Source: Hyphomicrobiales bacterium (GTDB lineage: Bacteria > Pseudomonadota > Alphaproteobacteria > Rhizobiales > Rhizobiaceae). From it: a stretch of DNA of 64,000 bases. The position numbers and the translations under genes were made by a program. This document shows, one piece after another, positions 1 to 63,354 of the stretch. Where the stretch lies: contig JAKDNM010000005.1 in the NCBI GenBank assembly GCA_030456445.1, positions 1-64,000 on the forward strand, given 5' to 3'. The notes beneath the pieces were generated by a model. It was not told where the DNA came from. It made no database searches and saw only the letters and a list, made by a program, of their open reading frames with translations. Each line of letters begins with the position of its first letter. Position 1 is the first letter of the stretch.

Positions 1-132
1 CCACCCCTAACCCCTCCCCACAAGGGGGAGGGGAACTGGCCCACGTCGCTGACTGCAGAGACCTGACAAGGCCTGACGCGGCCAGAGCCACTGGGAATCC
101 CCCTCCCCCTTGTGGGGAGGGGTTAGGGGTGG
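1..132. repeat. Interspersed palindromic element with perfect 33-bp inverted arms (1-33 and 100-132)
   Basis: CCACCCCTAACCCCTCCCCACAAGGGGGAGGGG at 1-33 is the exact reverse complement of 100-132; may extend beyond the window edge. Confidence 0.9.
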
Positions 133-2420
133 GGGTCAGGACTACGAATCTCCTCGACCTCCGCCTCCCGGCCGCCGGCCGTGCGGTCGGCGCTTCGCCG
201 ATCCGTCTCGACGGCATTCCGAAAGTGTCGGGCACCGACCGTTTCGGCGCCGACGAGCGCCCCGTCGACGCGTTGTCGGTCATGGTTATCCGCTCGCCGC
301 ACTGGCACGCTTCATTCACGTTCGGCGATCTCGACGCCTTCGTTCGCGACCATCCCGGCATCGTGGCGGTCTATATGGCGGCCGATATTCCCGGTCGCAA
401 TGTGTTCGGGGTGATCGCGCCGTTTGCCGACCAGCCAGCGCTGGCGGAAGGCGCGGCGCGCTTCCGGGGCGAGGCGGTAGCGCTGGTCGCCGGCGAGAAG
501 GATGCGATAGAAGATTTCGATCCGGCCGATTTCCCGATCGAATGGACCGTCCTGCCGCACACGCTCGCGCCAGCGGAGGCGTTGAATGGTTTTGCGCCGG
601 TCCACGCCAGCCGCAAGGACAACATCCTGACCACCGGCTTCGTGGAGCGCGGCGATCCGGAACAGGCGCTGGCAGAAGCGGCGTTCACCGTCACCGGCGC
701 GGTCGACACCTCCTATGTCGAGCACGCCTATATCGAGCCGGAGGCAGGCTATGCCTTCATGGATGGCGACACGCTGGTCATCAAGGCATGCACCCAGGCG
801 CCCTATATGGACCGGGCCGATACCGCCGCCGTGCTCGGCCTCGCGCCGGAGAAGGTGCGGATCGTGCCGACAGCGACCGGCGGCGGCTTCGGCTCCAAGC
901 TCGACGTGTCTTTGCAGCCGCTGATAGGGCTGGTGGCGCTGAAGACGGGCCGGCCGGCCTGTCTCGTCTATACCCGCTTTGAATCGATGGCCTCGACCAC
1001 AAAACGCCACCCGGGATCGATGAAGGCGACGATCGGAGCCGATGCCGAAGGCCGGGTGACCGGCATGGTCTTCGAGGGCGATTTCAACACCGGCGCCTAT
1101 GCGAGTTGGGGGCCGACCGTGGCGAACCGGGTGCCGGTTCATGCCTCCGGCCCCTATGCCGTGGCGAACTATCGCGCGACCGGCAGGGCGGTGCATACGA
1201 ACGGTCCGATCGCCGGCGCCTTTCGCGGCTTCGGTGTGCCGCAGGCGACCATCATGCAGGAGACGCTTTACGACGAACTTGCCGAAAAGATCGGCATGGA
1301 CCGGCTGGAGTTCCGCCTGAAGAACGCCTTCCGCAAGGGCTCCGTCACCGCCACCGGGCAGGTGCTGGAGGCGGCCGGCATCGTCGAATGTCTTGAAGCC
1401 TTGGAGCCGCATTGGGCACGGGCGCTGGCGGACGCGGAAGCCTTCAATGCCGTGCATGCGGCGCGCAAGCGCGGCGTCGGCGTGGCGTCGTGCTGGTATG
1501 GCTGCGGCAACACCGCGCTGCCCAACCCGTCCACCATCAAGATCGGCATTTCGCCGACAGGCGAAGTGGTGCTGCATCAGGGTGCGGTCGATATCGGCCA
1601 GGGTTCCAACACGGTGATTTCACAGATCGCCGCCGACTCGCTCGGCCTGCCGCTCGGCAAGCTGCGCCTCGTCGGAGCCGATACCTCGATCACGCCGGAT
1701 GCCGGCAAGACGTCCGCCTCCCGCCAGACCTTCATCACCGGCAAGGCGGCGGAGAAGGCCGGCCGCGCCCTTCGCGAAAAAATCCTGCGTTTCGCCAATG
1801 TCTCCGAGAAGGCGGTGCTGTCGCTCGACGGTACAACGCTTACGGTGCGGGAGGGTGACGCCGTGCGCGCCATCGATCTTGGCGCGATGAAGGCGGATGT
1901 CGACGGCTTCGTCTTCCGTGCGGTCGAGACCTATGACGCGCCGACTACCGCTCTCGACGCCAAGGGGCAGGGCAAGCCTTACGCCGTCTACGGTTTCGGG
2001 GCGCAGATCGCCGAACTCGAGGTCGACATGAGGCTCGGCACGGTGAAGCTCATCAAGATCACCGCGGCCCACGATGTCGGCCGCGCCATCAATCCTCTTC
2101 TGGTCGAAGGCCAGATCGAAGGCGGCATCGCTCAAGGGATCGGGCTGGCGTTGATGGAGGAATATATTCCAGGCCGCACCGAGAATCTGCACGATTACCT
2201 GATCCCGACCATCGGCGACGTGCCGCCGATCGAATCGATCCTGGTCGAGGTGCCGGACCCGGAAGGTCCCTTCGGCGCCAAGGGGCTGGGCGAGCATGTG
2301 CTGATCCCGACCGCGCCCGCGATCCTCAACGCCATCCGCCACGCGTCGGGGGCGAAGATCGCCAAGGTGCCCGCGACACCGTCGCGGGTGCTGGCCGCGA
2401 TTAAGGAAGTGGGCAAATGA
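129..2420 (+). CDS. Xanthine dehydrogenase family molybdopterin-binding subunit (Mo hydroxylase); probably 5'-incomplete because the frame is open to the window edge
   Basis: Motifs typical of the family: GGGFGSKLD, GAFRGFGVPQ, GAVDIGQGSNTVI, GPFGAKGLGE; frame has no stop from position 3. Confidence 0.85.
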   Translation: MGVRTTNLLDLRLPAAGRAVGASPIRLDGIPKVSGTDRFGADERPVDALSVMVIRSPHWHASFTFGDLDAFVRDHPGIVAVYMAADIPGRNVFGVIAPFADQPALAEGAARFRGEAVALVAGEKDAIEDFDPADFPIEWTVLPHTLAPAEALNGFAPVHASRKDNILTTGFVERGDPEQALAEAAFTVTGAVDTSYVEHAYIEPEAGYAFMDGDTLVIKACTQAPYMDRADTAAVLGLAPEKVRIVPTATGGGFGSKLDVSLQPLIGLVALKTGRPACLVYTRFESMASTTKRHPGSMKATIGADAEGRVTGMVFEGDFNTGAYASWGPTVANRVPVHASGPYAVANYRATGRAVHTNGPIAGAFRGFGVPQATIMQETLYDELAEKIGMDRLEFRLKNAFRKGSVTATGQVLEAAGIVECLEALEPHWARALADAEAFNAVHAARKRGVGVASCWYGCGNTALPNPSTIKIGISPTGEVVLHQGAVDIGQGSNTVISQIAADSLGLPLGKLRLVGADTSITPDAGKTSASRQTFITGKAAEKAGRALREKILRFANVSEKAVLSLDGTTLTVREGDAVRAIDLGAMKADVDGFVFRAVETYDAPTTALDAKGQGKPYAVYGFGAQIAELEVDMRLGTVKLIKITAAHDVGRAINPLLVEGQIEGGIAQGIGLALMEEYIPGRTENLHDYLIPTIGDVPPIESILVEVPDPEGPFGAKGLGEHVLIPTAPAILNAIRHASGAKIAKVPATPSRVLAAIKEVGK

Positions 2421-2475
2421 TTGCCGCCGGCGGTGTGAAGGAACGCGAGCGTATCCGTTTCGGGGAGCAGCTCTC

Positions 2476-4014
2476 GTGAGCGAACTCTCCGAGCGTTTCG
2501 AGACGCATGATCCCGGCCCACAAAAGTCCGGCGAGAAGATCCGCTGCGATGCCTGCCCTGTCATGTGCTACATCGCCGAGGGCCGCACCGGCGCCTGCGA
2601 CCGCTACGGCAATGTCGGCGGCCGGATCGTGCGCTGCGATCCGCTGACCATCCTCGAGCATACCGAAGAGGCCGGCGGCGCCGTCACGCCCTTCCTCGCC
2701 GAGGGCGAGGACTGGAACGGCGAGCTGGTGAACAGCGGCCGCCGTTTCGTCAGCGCCATCGGTGCCGGCACCACCTATCCCGACTACAAGCCCGCGCCCT
2801 TCATCGTCAGCCAGGAGGTCGAGGGCGTCGATCTCGTCACGGTCGTGACGGAAGGGATATTTTCCTACTGCGGCGCCAAAGTGAAGATCGACACCGACCG
2901 CCATCTGGGCGACGAGACCGCCCCCGTGCGCGCAGGCGCCGAGGTGATCGGCCATGTCTCCACCGCCGAATATGGCTCGCAGATGCTGTCGCTCGGCGGC
3001 GTGCATCACCTGACCGGCGGCTCCAAGGCGGAGGGCCGCGCCACCTGCGACGCGCTGCTTGCGCTTTGCAACAAGAAGGCTGTGGAACTGACCATCGATG
3101 GTGGCGTGAGCGTCGTCGTCCAGGCCGGCAAGGCGCCCATCATCGACGGCAGGGCCGAGCAGCGCATGCGCGTCGGCTGCGGCTCGGCCACCATCGGCAT
3201 GTTCGCCACCCAATGGAAGGACCTTGTTGACGAGGTGGTTGTCGTGGACGACCATATCACCGGCGTCGTCTCCGAGCATCAGGCCGGCAAGGTGCTCGGT
3301 TGGCCAGATACGGGGATAAAGATCCTCGGCCGGCGTTCGACGCCGGGTCGCTATTTCAAGGTCTCCGAGGCGGGGCTCGGCTGGGGCGGCACCACCGTTT
3401 CCGATCCGCTGCAGATCCTTGGCGAATGGAACCCGAAGAAGGGTGCACGGCCCGGCCTGTCGCTGATGATGGTCTCCACGACCGGCGAGCAGTTCGCTTA
3501 TTTCGAGCTGGACGACGATCTGAAGCCGATCGAAAAGCCGTTCCCGGAGCGGCTGCGGAAGTCGGTGGATCTGATCGAGGACAATTGCGAGCCGGCGCTC
3601 TGCACCGTGCTCTTTGTGGGCGGCGCCGGCGGCTCATTGCGTGCCGGCGTGACCGAGAACCCGGTCAACCTCACACGCTCTGTCCACGGGCTCCAGACCT
3701 ATGTCACGGTCGGCGGCGCGCCGGTCTATGTGTGGCCTGGCGGCGGCATCATGCTGATGGTCGACGTCATGCGCACGCCGGACAATTCTTTTGGCTACGT
3801 GCCGACGCCGGCGCTGGTCGCGCCGATCGAGTTCACGCTTACCCGCGACGATTACGAGCGGCTCGGCGGCTATGTCTCCGAGATACGCACGGTAGAAGAC
3901 GTGATCGCGCGCGGCGGCGAATATCTGAACCCTCGCCGTGGCGCCGGTGCGCCGGGCGTCAATCCGTGGCCGCCGCTGCAATATCTCAGCCATTCCCGGG
4001 GCCGGCCGCGATGA
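2476..4014 (+). CDS. 6-hydroxynicotinate reductase-like iron-sulfur protein
   Basis: 512 aa; N-terminal CDACPVMC...GACDRYGN Cys cluster; overall resemblance to proteins annotated as 6-hydroxynicotinate reductase; between Mo hydroxylase and UPF0280 genes. Confidence 0.65.
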   Translation: MSELSERFETHDPGPQKSGEKIRCDACPVMCYIAEGRTGACDRYGNVGGRIVRCDPLTILEHTEEAGGAVTPFLAEGEDWNGELVNSGRRFVSAIGAGTTYPDYKPAPFIVSQEVEGVDLVTVVTEGIFSYCGAKVKIDTDRHLGDETAPVRAGAEVIGHVSTAEYGSQMLSLGGVHHLTGGSKAEGRATCDALLALCNKKAVELTIDGGVSVVVQAGKAPIIDGRAEQRMRVGCGSATIGMFATQWKDLVDEVVVVDDHITGVVSEHQAGKVLGWPDTGIKILGRRSTPGRYFKVSEAGLGWGGTTVSDPLQILGEWNPKKGARPGLSLMMVSTTGEQFAYFELDDDLKPIEKPFPERLRKSVDLIEDNCEPALCTVLFVGGAGGSLRAGVTENPVNLTRSVHGLQTYVTVGGAPVYVWPGGGIMLMVDVMRTPDNSFGYVPTPALVAPIEFTLTRDDYERLGGYVSEIRTVEDVIARGGEYLNPRRGAGAPGVNPWPPLQYLSHSRGRPR

Positions 4015-4910
4015 ACGGACCTCGGATCGTCTGGCTGCCGGACGGACGCCGGCTGCACATGAACCACGGCCCGATAGACCTGGTCGTAGAGGCCTTTGGC
4101 GCTGCCGGCGAGGTCAAGGCGGCCTACCGGCAGGCGGCACGGCGTTTCCAGACGATTTTGGGTGAACTGGTCGAGGAACTGACGGAGTTGCGCCGGCCGT
4201 CTTCGCTCAAGCGGCGTTCCTTTGCCGGCCCGACGGCGCGCCGCATGGAGGTGGCCGCCTCGCGCTTCGCCGAAATTTTCGTGACGCCGATGGCGGCGGT
4301 CGCCGGTTCGGTCGCCGACGAGATGCTGGCGGCGATGCTTGCCGGCCGCTCGCTCGACCGCGCCTATGTCAATGATGGCGGCGACATTGCCATCCATCTT
4401 GCGAAAGGCCAGTCGATGAAGGCGGCAATCGCCGGCGCCTTGCATGGCCTGTCCGACCGGCTGGTCATCCGCGCGGACGATCGCGTGCGCGGCATCGCCA
4501 CCAGCGGCTGGCGCGGCCGCAGCTTTTCCTTCGGCATCGCCGACGCGGTGACGGTTCTGGCGAAGGACGGCGCCAGCGCCGATGTCGCCGCCACCCTGAT
4601 CGCCAACGCGGTCGACCTGCCCCGCCATCCCGCGATCCGGCGCCAGTGCGCCTGCGATATCCAGCCGGACAGCGACCTCGGCGAGAGACTGGTGACGACG
4701 GATGTCGGGTTGCTCGGCGATAACGAAATCACGCTTGCGCTGGAGCGCGGTCGGGCTGTCGCCGAAGACTACCGCCGGCACGGGCTGATCGAAGCGGCGG
4801 CGCTGTTCCTTGGCGGGCAATCGCGTATCTGCGGAGATGACTTCGTGGAAAAGGCGACGCTCCTGCGCGCGCCCATCTTCAAATCTCATATGGAGCCGCA
4901 GCATGCCTGA
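4011..4910 (+). CDS. UPF0280 family protein (ApbE superfamily)
   Basis: ATGA overlap with upstream gene; MNGPRIVWLPDGRRLHMNHGPIDLVVEAFG..., YVNDGGDIAIHL..., GIATSGWRGRSFSFGIADAVTVLA...ADVAATLIANAVD resembles UPF0280/COG2122. Confidence 0.8.
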   Translation: MNGPRIVWLPDGRRLHMNHGPIDLVVEAFGAAGEVKAAYRQAARRFQTILGELVEELTELRRPSSLKRRSFAGPTARRMEVAASRFAEIFVTPMAAVAGSVADEMLAAMLAGRSLDRAYVNDGGDIAIHLAKGQSMKAAIAGALHGLSDRLVIRADDRVRGIATSGWRGRSFSFGIADAVTVLAKDGASADVAATLIANAVDLPRHPAIRRQCACDIQPDSDLGERLVTTDVGLLGDNEITLALERGRAVAEDYRRHGLIEAAALFLGGQSRICGDDFVEKATLLRAPIFKSHMEPQHA

Positions 4911-5487
4911 ATTCCCGATCCGCAAGATCGCAGTCGTGACCGAGGAAATCCTGCACGAGGGTGGGCCGGCGCCGGCAGCACCGCGCCGCCGCGCCGCCGC
5001 GCTGGCGCTGGTGAAGAACCCCTATGCCGGCAGATATGTCGCCGAATTGCAGCCCGGCATGGAGGATCTGAAACCGCTCGGCCTGATACTGACCGACCGG
5101 CTGATCGCCGCGCTCGGTGGCGACATCGCGGCGATCGACGGCTACGGCAAGGGCGCCATCGTCGGCACGGCAGGGGAAATAGAGCATGGCGCGCTCTGGC
5201 ACGTGCCGGGCGGCTACGCCATGCGCGCAAGACTGGGTGATGCCAAGGCCATCGTGCCCTCGGCGATGAAGGTCGGCGCGTTCGGCGCCTCGCTCGACGT
5301 GCCGCTCGGCCACACCAACGCCGCCTATGTGCGCAGTCATTTCGACGCCATGACCGTCTCGATACCGGACGGCCCGCGCGCCGACGAGATACTGTTTTGC
5401 CTCGCCATGGCCTGCGGTCCGCGCGTCCATAACCGTATGGGCGGCCTGGCGGTGGAGGACATCAAGGCGGGGGACGGGCTGAGATGA
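4903..5487 (+). CDS. Amino acid synthesis (AA_synth) family protein
   Basis: MPEFPIRKIAVVTEEILHEGG... typical of the family; overlaps upstream gene by 8 nt. Confidence 0.75.
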   Translation: MPEFPIRKIAVVTEEILHEGGPAPAAPRRRAAALALVKNPYAGRYVAELQPGMEDLKPLGLILTDRLIAALGGDIAAIDGYGKGAIVGTAGEIEHGALWHVPGGYAMRARLGDAKAIVPSAMKVGAFGASLDVPLGHTNAAYVRSHFDAMTVSIPDGPRADEILFCLAMACGPRVHNRMGGLAVEDIKAGDGLR

Positions 5488-5939
5488 CCGTGCCGGGCGA
5501 CAAGCTGAAGCTGGTCGAGGCCGGCGCCGAGACGGCCTACCGGCTGCATAAGCAGATCGGCTTCATCCTGCGCAAGGCGAACCAGCGCCATATCGCCATC
5601 TTCGCGAAGCATATCGGCGACCTTACCCCGCCGCAATTCGCCGCGCTCGCCAGGCTGGCGGAGATAGGCGAGGCCTCCCAGAACCAGCTTGGCACGATGG
5701 TTGCGATGGATGCAGCGACGATCAAGGGCGTCATCGACCGGCTGAAGGCGCGCGGGTTGGTCGTGCTGTCCGCGCACAAGGAAGACCGGCGCCGGCTGGT
5801 GGTCAGCCTTTCCGATGAGGGGAGGGCCATGATCGAGAAACTGTTGCCGCTCGCCGAACGGATCACCGCCGAGACACTGGCGCCCCTCAACGGCCGCGAG
5901 ACCACGGCCTTCCTGAAATTGCTGGCCAAGCTCGCTTAA
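5484..5939 (+). CDS. MarR family transcriptional regulator
   Basis: 151 aa, LTPPQFAALARLAEIGEASQNQLGTMVAMDAATIKGVIDRLKARGLV...DRRRLVVSLSDEG winged-helix signature; ATGA overlap with upstream gene. Confidence 0.9.
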   Translation: MTVPGDKLKLVEAGAETAYRLHKQIGFILRKANQRHIAIFAKHIGDLTPPQFAALARLAEIGEASQNQLGTMVAMDAATIKGVIDRLKARGLVVLSAHKEDRRRLVVSLSDEGRAMIEKLLPLAERITAETLAPLNGRETTAFLKLLAKLA

Positions 5940-61281: not shown

Positions 61282-63354
61282 ATGCTTTCCGATCAGGCTC
61301 TCGATATGCACGCCCCCAACCCGCTCCGTTCCGATTCGCCGCTCACGCCCGGCCCCGTCTTCCTCGGTATCGACACAGGCGGCACCTATACCGACGCCGC
61401 TCTGTGGCGCGACGGCGCGTCGGGCGGCACCGTGCTCGCCAAGGCCAAGGCGCTGACGACAAGGCACGACCTTGCCGTGGGCATTTCGGGCGCGGTCGAC
61501 GCGGTGCTGGCGAACGCCGCCATCGACCCGGCCTCGATCAAGCTCGTCTCCATGTCGACCACACTCGCCACCAACGCGCTGGTCGAAGGGCAGGGCGGAC
61601 GGGCCGCACTTGTCATGATCGGCTTCGGCGAGGCCGAGCTTGCCCGCGCCGGCCTTGGCCAGGCGCTCGGCTCCGATCCCGTCATCTTCTGTCCGGGCGG
61701 CCATGATGTTCATGGCAACGCCACCGAACTCGATCTTTCCCCGCTCGAGGAGGCGATGCCGGGACTGGCCGAGACCGTTTCAGGCTTTGCCGTGTGCGCC
61801 TGTTTCGCCACGCGCAATCCCGAGCACGAGCTTATCGTGCGCGACATGATCCGCGAGAGGACCGGCCTGCCCGTCACCGCGAGCCACGAACTGTCTGCCA
61901 AGCTTGGCGGGCCGCGCCGCGCGCTGACCACGCTCCTCAATGCCCGTCTGATCGCCATGATCGACCGGCTGGTTGCGGCGACGGAAGGTTTCCTGGAAGC
62001 ACGCGGCATCGCCGCGCCGCTGATGGTGGTGCGCGGCGACGGCGCGCTCGTCTCGGCTTCCTTCGCCCGCCAGCGGCCGATCGAGACGATTCTCTCCGGT
62101 CCAGCCGCCAGCATCGTCGGCGCCCGCCACATGACCGGCCTCGACAATGCCGTCGTTTCGGACATCGGCGGCACGACGACCGATGTGGCCGTGCTCGACC
62201 ATGGCCGGCCGCGCCTCGATCCGGAAGGCGCGATGGTCGGCGGTTTGCGGACCATGGTCGAGGCCGTCGCCATGCGCACCTTCGGTCTCGGCGGCGATTC
62301 GGAAGTGTCGCTCGACGAGCGCATCCTGGTGCCGCGCCTCAAGCTTGGCCCCCGCCGCCTGGTGCCGCTGGCGCTCGCCGGCATGGTGCATGGAAAGACG
62401 ATCTATTCCGAACTCGAGCGGCAGTTGCGCGCCGCCCATCCGAGCCGTCTCGACGGCCGCTTCGCCTTTCGCACCGGCGTGCCCGAACGGCTTGCCGCCG
62501 GCCTTAGCCGCAACGAGGCGCGGCTCTACGGGGAGATAGACAATACGCCCAGGCCGCTCGACCTGCTGCTCGTCTCCAACGCGCAGGGCGCCACGCTGAA
62601 CCGGCTGGTCGCGCGCGGTCTCGTCCATGTCGTCGGCTTCACGCCTTCCGATGCCGCCCATGTGCTCGGCAAGCAGGCGAACTGGGATGCGACGGCCGCC
62701 CGCCTCGGCGCCGAGCTTTTCTCCCGCCGGCGCGATGCCCTTGGCCAGTTCATCGCCGCCTCGCCTGAGGCGCTCGCCGAGTGGGTGCTGCGAGCGGTCA
62801 CGCGCCGTTCGGCCGAGTGCGTGCTGGAGACCTCCTTCGCCGAAGACGGGCTGGACGGCGCCGACACCGTCGCGCACCCTCTGGTACAGCGCGCGGTGGA
62901 GACGCGCCCGGGGATCGTCGGCCTTGCCGTCTCGCTCGACCGGCCGGTAATCGGGCTCGGCGCTTCCGCGCCGCTCCACTATGCCGGCCTCCCGCCGATC
63001 GTCGGCAATGAATGTATCGTGCCGCCGGACGCCGATGTCGCCAACGCGCTCGGCGCGGTCGTCGGACAGGTGCGCGTCACGGCGGAGGCCCTCGTAAGCC
63101 AGCCCGAGGAAGGCCTCTTCCGGCTTTCCTGCGGCGAGATCATGGTCGATTTCAAGGAAGAGGAGCCGGCGATCGCGGCAGCCGAAAAGGAGGCCCGCGC
63201 CATTGCCGCCGCACGTGCGCTGGAAGCCGGCACCGACAATGCCGAGATCGACGTGGCGACAGAGTTCCATGTCTCGACCGTTGAGGGAAGGCGCATGTTC
63301 GTCGAGGCGCATGTCGTAGCCACCGCCTCCGGCCGCCCGCGCATCGCGGCGTGA
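61282..63354 (+). CDS. Hydantoinase/oxoprolinase family protein
   Basis: FLGIDTGGTYTDAAL nucleotide-binding motif; MSTTLATNALVEGQGGRAALVMIGFGEA; DIGGTTTDVAVL; ORF open from 61255. Confidence 0.88.
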   Translation: MLSDQALDMHAPNPLRSDSPLTPGPVFLGIDTGGTYTDAALWRDGASGGTVLAKAKALTTRHDLAVGISGAVDAVLANAAIDPASIKLVSMSTTLATNALVEGQGGRAALVMIGFGEAELARAGLGQALGSDPVIFCPGGHDVHGNATELDLSPLEEAMPGLAETVSGFAVCACFATRNPEHELIVRDMIRERTGLPVTASHELSAKLGGPRRALTTLLNARLIAMIDRLVAATEGFLEARGIAAPLMVVRGDGALVSASFARQRPIETILSGPAASIVGARHMTGLDNAVVSDIGGTTTDVAVLDHGRPRLDPEGAMVGGLRTMVEAVAMRTFGLGGDSEVSLDERILVPRLKLGPRRLVPLALAGMVHGKTIYSELERQLRAAHPSRLDGRFAFRTGVPERLAAGLSRNEARLYGEIDNTPRPLDLLLVSNAQGATLNRLVARGLVHVVGFTPSDAAHVLGKQANWDATAARLGAELFSRRRDALGQFIAASPEALAEWVLRAVTRRSAECVLETSFAEDGLDGADTVAHPLVQRAVETRPGIVGLAVSLDRPVIGLGASAPLHYAGLPPIVGNECIVPPDADVANALGAVVGQVRVTAEALVSQPEEGLFRLSCGEIMVDFKEEEPAIAAAEKEARAIAAARALEAGTDNAEIDVATEFHVSTVEGRRMFVEAHVVATASGRPRIAA

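Follow-up and report, generated by a model that had tools for sequence, protein, structure and literature searches.

A probable MarR-controlled operon for reductive nicotinate catabolism in a Mesorhizobium-related genome

Gene content and conserved order of the operon

We analysed a stretch of DNA (the window) that takes in the first 64 kb of contig C210 in a Mesorhizobium-related genome of 247 contigs. The genes at its start, all on the forward strand, probably form the later portion of an operon under MarR control that serves the reductive breakdown of nicotinate. These encode the C-terminal (molybdopterin) portion of a nicotinate-type hydroxylase in which [2Fe-2S] and Mo domains are fused (3–2420), a 6-hydroxynicotinate reductase homologue that we refer to as Hnr (2476–4014), a UPF0280/COG2122 protein with an ApbE-like fold (4011–4910), a PF06684 protein (AA_synth, DUF1185; 4903–5487), and a MarR-family regulator (5484–5939). 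In agreement with the first-pass annotation, the last four genes overlap by 4, 8, and 4 nt, and 55 nt separate the end of the hydroxylase gene at 2420 from hnr at 2476. Profile searches placed the UPF0280 protein (374 bits against NCBIfam NF003322, PRK04334; cut-off 290), the AA_synth protein (227 bits against PF06684; cut-off 27), and the MarR protein (42 bits; cut-off 24.6) well within their families. The 2476–4014 protein had no Pfam or NCBIfam match, and its identification is based on homologues annotated as 6-hydroxynicotinate reductase (58–70% identity).

The hydroxylase gene had previously been given a start at position 129, which we reject: its frame is open up to base 3, its homologues have an extra N-terminal [2Fe-2S] domain, and base 1 of the window is the contig end (G000:C210:1), so that the break sits inside the gene. 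The missing N-terminal 166 codons, which include this domain, are found at the end of contig C97 (16022–16520; 92% identity to a congener). C97 and the window share an 18-base overlap, namely the first 18 bases of the window, and joining them gives a stop-free, in-frame protein of 966 aa. C97 also carries a gene for a FAD subunit (FAD_binding_5) and a divergent nicotinamidase gene. With the MoCoBD_1/2 families that make up the window part of the hydroxylase, the three cofactor-binding parts of the multi-subunit hydroxylase expected in a reductive cluster, that is, one proceeding through 1,4,5,6-tetrahydro-6-oxonicotinate (THON), are all present. Read across both contigs, the genes come in the order pncA (divergent), FAD subunit, fused [2Fe-2S]/Mo hydroxylase, hnr, UPF0280, AA_synth, and marR.

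We compared 80 homologous hnr loci, and in 78 of them the sequence continues for 1 kb or more past hnr. UPF0280 adjoins hnr in 77 of these 78, with a gap of −4 or −1 nt in 59, and AA_synth comes next in 66/74 loci (67 after a tblastn re-check), the identical 8-nt overlap being found in 58. The first-pass annotation had suggested looking for constant UPF0280 and AA_synth partners; the two families are near-constant neighbours, and the order hnr-UPF0280-AA_synth is far from chance. Annotated plasmid loci of Neorhizobium and Comamonadaceae have the same core with a different hydroxylase, of the NicAB type, alongside. In a sample of 249 genomes of Pseudomonadota, the 18 that have Hnr are exactly the 18 that have UPF0280, with the two adjacent in each and zero exceptions (formal p = 9e-28, an overstated value as the Hnr genomes span only 8 genera). 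AA_synth is more widespread, occurring in 34/249 genomes that include all 18.

The assembly break falls within a palindromic repeat element (1–136) with exact 33-bp inverted arms (1–33 and 100–132) and further copies on contigs C38, C44, and C168. In the hydroxylase it forms an in-frame linker between the [2Fe-2S] and Mo domains. When window 1–136 with L119:16488–16520 was compared with L102, L104, L002, L013, L016, L017, L022, and L048, three lineages were seen to have different in-frame palindromic repeats at this interdomain position, while other homologues have a short linker. The linker peptide reads NPSPQGGGE...NPPPPCGEGLGVG in this genome, SVLPDISP...SPL-GEMSGRTEGGAKG in congeners, and HPPAGTFSPYSDGEKG...PSPRSSRGEG in Mesorhizobium. 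These palindromes are reminiscent of the protein-coding palindromic elements of Rickettsia.

Hnr and its partner UPF0280

Nine cysteines of Hnr (24, 27, 31, 41, 132, 191, 198, 235, and 371) are invariant in 31 homologues, in line with the cysteines of an iron-sulfur protein, as is the block VDDHIT-V-SEH-AGKV. A weak match to the Pfam family GCV_T_C was found in 22 of the 31 proteins. The predicted structure of Hnr (pLDDT 75, pTM 0.71) gave no PDB match at E 0.001, from which we conclude nothing on its fold; the catalytic core may be a fold that lacks a solved representative. In one genome (G076:C1:2969805–2971249; loci L155 and L156) hnr is divided around residue 243 into two overlapping frames, suggesting either a two-subunit form or a frameshift.

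For UPF0280, the structural model (pLDDT 92) was closest in a Foldseek search to DVU1097 (2o34, E 9.9e-11), and it also matched ApbE flavin transferases (best E 3.1e-5, probability 1.00; 5mgy), giving the protein an ApbE fold. Besides the overall fold, it shares with these enzymes an SG motif. An invariant D191/T195 pair has the Asp-x3-Thr spacing of the ApbE metal site in the alignment, and may correspond to it. Unlike in ApbE, however, the catalytic histidine is not conserved in the UPF0280 alignment, the equivalent region being GRS[H/F/L/Q]S with H, F, L, or Q at position 172, and the Pfam ApbE score of the window protein (11.3 bits) is below the 25.6-bit cut-off. Because of the missing histidine, we do not file UPF0280 as an ApbE flavin transferase. 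Its conserved residues look pocket-like (HGPID, TPMAAVAG, NGGD, SG--GRS-S-G-AD, and AD-AAT-IAN), and the alignment has no conserved cysteine.

Our leading, still tentative, idea is that UPF0280 attaches a flavin to Hnr or helps to mature it in some other way. It is prompted by the Hnr of Eubacterium barkeri, which is said, in the abstract of Alhapel et al. from 2006, to hold a covalently bound flavin. The exact ApbE target motif (D-x-x-S/T-G-A-T) is not present in Hnr, whose invariant D-H-I-T-x-V-x-S stretch at 259–266 resembles it only loosely. Two other roles were weighed, and we regard both as unlikely. The first is sulfur trafficking or Fe-S assembly for the cysteine-rich Hnr. A methanogen member of COG2122, MA1715, has been described as a sulfur-trafficking protein, and the family is genetically tied to COG1900 homocysteine synthesis (PMC12068725, PMC5764234); the nine invariant cysteines of Hnr and the lack of a conserved ApbE histidine would also suit such a role. 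Against it speak the match to the fold of ApbE flavin transferases, the invariant pair spaced like that of their metal site, the lack of a conserved cysteine in UPF0280, and the flavin reported for E. barkeri Hnr.

The second role, just as unlikely in our view, is that of a pathway enzyme acting, for example, on THON. The pocket-like residues and the near-constant presence of UPF0280 as a co-transcribed gene are compatible with this. However, UPF0280 accompanies Hnr irrespective of the ring-opening enzyme or hydroxylase type, and its relatives elsewhere pair with the functionally unrelated COG1900 (PMC5764234), which better suits maturation. In Desulfovibrio, the COG2122 family is needed together with DUF39/COG1900 for homocysteine synthesis (fitness r=0.98; PMC5764234). 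The proteins of that pathway (DvMF_0044, MA1715) belong to the same UPF0280 family and are likewise strict genetic partners of one redox protein; there the partner is DUF39/COG1900, whereas in the 249 Pseudomonadota genomes it is Hnr. COG1900/HcyBio was rejected as a partner in Pseudomonadota (PF01837 in 0/249 genomes), as was Hnr as a recognisable COG1900 relative, the Pfam HcyBio match being absent. The common thread for UPF0280 is one redox client per lineage.

Ring opening and the shared operator

The enamidase expected in a reductive (THON) cluster was not found in this genome (G000) when the protein from the Comamonadaceae locus L188 was used as query against the assembly, which is 93% complete. 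That protein, an amidohydrolase encoded near hnr, matches the E. barkeri enamidase 2vun with E=2.4e-111, and in L214, L215, and L216 copies with 67–89% identity share a contig with hnr and are not far from it. What the present genome has is a set of fpr (ferredoxin-NADP reductase), hyuA, and hyuB genes together on contig C146. HyuA and HyuB share their domain composition with caprolactamase CapAB of the hydantoinase/oxoprolinase family, whose models are their best NCBIfam matches, and an ATP-dependent lactam opening of this kind would suit THON. In L187 and L189, hyuAB lies downstream of AA_synth on the same strand. Pathway-type hyuB is 65–86% identical to the Neorhizobium copy, which follows AA_synth on one strand, compared with 45% or less for other hydantoinase paralogues.

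In the 38 genomes that carry Hnr, enamidase and hyuB exclude each other almost completely: 24 have hyuB only, 11 enamidase only, 2 both, and one, a fragmented assembly, neither (Fisher p=7e-7, with genomes treated as independent). Enamidase was counted at 60% identity or more, leaving out paralogues of 38–41% on other contigs in G040 and G056.

The two parts of the system are further connected by a candidate operator, ATCATTTGnATACnAATnAAT, which came to light when upstream sequences were compared by eye and was then put to the test by pattern search. Allowing up to 2 mismatches, it occurs exactly twice in the genome, both times outside the window: at C97:15111 before the operon, and at C146:69392 between fpr and hyuA. 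The first site lies at a strong predicted promoter upstream of the FAD subunit gene, TTGACA-N16-TATCAT, which is overlapped by ATCATTTGCATACCAATGAAT (L119:15087–15131). The same pair of sites was found in other Hnr/hyuB genomes (G130, G110, G181, and G255), in which the loci are on separate contigs or about 100 kb apart. The site is present in 36/38 Mesorhizobium-type loci and in none of the shuffled sequences; three genomes without a detected Hnr (G032, G165, and G138) have none, and a reversed-pattern control gave zero in all 15 genomes. No exact 6-bp palindrome was shared among the sequences that precede the operon. As marR is the last gene of an operon preceded by this conserved site, the arrangement fits control by the MarR protein, the putative repressor at ATCATTTGnATACnAATnAAT. 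In genome G095, which belongs to the same order, related sites are located both in the nicA-hnr interval and at the divergent enamidase-fpr promoter (L214), so that hyuAB holds here the regulatory position that enamidase has in that locus. Loci L188 and L215, where fpr and enamidase are separated by a TetR gene, have no operator site.

These results bear on the possibility that hyuAB and fpr are unrelated to the operon and near it by chance in some genomes, another hydrolase making up for the absent enamidase. The hyu family is indeed large in these genomes, with many paralogues at 30–45%, and HyuAB scores below the caprolactamase cut-offs. Yet fpr/hyuAB bears the operon's own operator even at a distance of about 100 kb or on a different contig, hyuAB lies behind AA_synth in the same orientation in two loci, and it is nearly exclusive with enamidase; we therefore consider chance proximity improbable. 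A broader proposal is that UPF0280/COG2122 is a single-client cofactor-attachment or maturation factor, serving Hnr in aerobic Pseudomonadota and COG1900 aldehyde sulfurtransferases in anaerobes, and that an ATP-dependent HyuAB lactamase replaced enamidase for THON ring opening within the same regulon; as a whole we put it forward with slightly less confidence than flavin attachment or maturation of Hnr taken by itself. A weak HyuA-like stretch in the window (61366–62301; 32% identity) belongs to a hydantoinase-family paralogue unlinked to the operon.

For the PF06684 protein, the candidate substrate is what ring opening yields, either 2-formylglutarate or the corresponding enamine. E92, E94, H95, H100, R174, and R178 are invariant and H146 and H176 nearly so, and this Glu/His/Arg cluster matches that of the solved BB2672 structure with an offset of +2. 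AA_synth is found beside hnr whichever ring-opening enzyme is present. In two genomes of the same family (genus g59, probably Mesorhizobium; L212:7956–11724 and L213:7776–11694), a tandem AA_synth pair lies with enamidase-like, MarR, and isochorismatase-family genes, with no hnr or UPF0280 and, in L212, with a Bmp-type transporter gene alongside; these islands possibly represent another azaheterocycle pathway. Its occurrence with either ring-opening enzyme, and next to an enamidase-like gene away from hnr, links AA_synth to the ring-opened product and not to the reductase. That it speeds tautomerisation or decarboxylation of 2-formylglutarate is a more specific suggestion, which we hold to be rather doubtful. 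TgnF, the PF06684 protein of the trigonelline operon, was reported to stimulate succinate semialdehyde oxidation (PMC7913881). Both TgnF and HcdD of the 7-hydroxycoumarin operon are, likewise, PF06684 proteins of unproven activity in ring-catabolic operons, the substrates and neighbours of which differ from those described here.

Substrate of the pathway and comparison with known systems

From the genes we infer the following route. PncA would convert nicotinamide to nicotinate, which the three-cofactor hydroxylase would convert to 6-hydroxynicotinate. Hnr, matured with the help of UPF0280, possibly by flavin installation, would then reduce this to THON with electrons passing from NADPH by way of Fpr and a ferredoxin. 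The lactam of THON would be opened by HyuAB, the ATP-dependent lactamase relative encoded on C146, in place of the enamidase of E. barkeri and some related genomes, and the PF06684 protein would act on the product. MarR would bind one and the same operator to repress the operon as well as the fpr/hyuAB promoter, until released by a pathway metabolite.

Nicotinate is the best-supported substrate, given the nicotinamidase gene, the enamidase near hnr in other lineages, and a published cluster (PMC3511419). The nicotinamidase, divergent from the FAD subunit gene, scores 209 bits against NF008623 (cut-off 174), and a homologue lies near the operon in about 40 loci. The substrate of enamidase is the product of Hnr, as established for E. 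barkeri. The first-pass annotation had favoured a reductive nicotinate route, which the nicotinamidase, the enamidase, and the conserved operator now strengthen, and it had cautioned that the true substrate might be another azaheterocycle because no downstream nicotinate genes were recognised. The window indeed holds no nicotinate-specific gene, the ring-opening hyuAB and fpr being on a third contig. Another hydroxylated pyridine or pyridine carboxylate, reduced by an Hnr of shifted specificity, would accord with this, with a hydroxylase that is not close to NicAB, with HyuAB taking the place of enamidase in this lineage, and with the ease with which Mo hydroxylases shift substrate. Nevertheless, Hnr is 68–69% identical to homologues beside nicAB-type genes or near enamidase (68.6% to that of L214, which lies beside nicAB-type genes and 7 kb from enamidase), the nicotinamidase recurs near the operon, and the same operator precedes both operon versions. 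The caution therefore loses weight without being dismissed, and a different azaheterocycle appears improbable.

Several observations weigh against the nicotinate operon as we describe it. The hydroxylase differs from characterised nicotinate enzymes, and its Mo part is only about 25% identical to the NicB type. HyuA and HyuB reach 507 and 320 bits against caprolactamase models with cut-offs of 1000, which places them in a separate subfamily, with THON as a putative substrate. A second hyuAB (L210:830–7209, contig C59) directly follows a Tn3-family transposase gene and has no operator; its HyuB is 86% identical to the Neorhizobium plasmid copy, and it looks recently acquired. Seven Hnr loci lack AA_synth beside UPF0280, and one (L055:2689–5694), the sole locus with room downstream but no adjacent UPF0280, has convergent ABC transporter ATPase genes next to hnr. 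Moreover, the genomes counted are related, with Hnr in 8 genera of the 249-genome sample, so that p-values overstate independence. The pairing of the MarR protein with the ATCATTTGnATACnAATnAAT operator is inferred from gene position and site conservation, and the substrates and reaction order are predictions from computation on genes.

If correct, this picture has two implications. Homocysteine synthesis in anaerobes depends genetically on COG2122, and Hnr as a near-obligate second client in genetically tractable rhizobia would bring the activity of the family within reach of direct tests. Current annotation overlooks a ring-opening step for which the shared operator and the exchange of hyuAB for enamidase provide a specific prediction; they also indicate the Rhizobiales expected to grow on nicotinate.

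The reductive nicotinate route and a related cluster are already known. In the literature searched we found no description of a regulon that joins hyuAB and fpr through this operator, of HyuAB standing in for enamidase, or of the exact pairing of Hnr with UPF0280, and these appear to be new. Nicotinate clusters were described in 2012 for Azorhizobium caulinodans ORS571, Bradyrhizobium japonicum USDA110, Rhodopseudomonas palustris HaA2, and strain SG-6C, whose Hnr is 42% identical to that of E. barkeri (PMC3511419, Fig. 4). Those clusters likewise proceed through THON. The present operon differs from them in its hydroxylase, composed of a fused [2Fe-2S]/Mo protein and a FAD subunit, in the divergent nicotinamidase gene, and in a defined MarR-type operator, and the present genome in having, where enamidase was not found, hyuAB co-regulated through the shared site. 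The fermentation cluster of E. barkeri also hydroxylates nicotinate before ring reduction by Hnr; it reportedly encodes a four-subunit, Se-dependent hydroxylase and an enamidase, and 2-formylglutarate is said to be reduced there rather than to enter a glutarate route.

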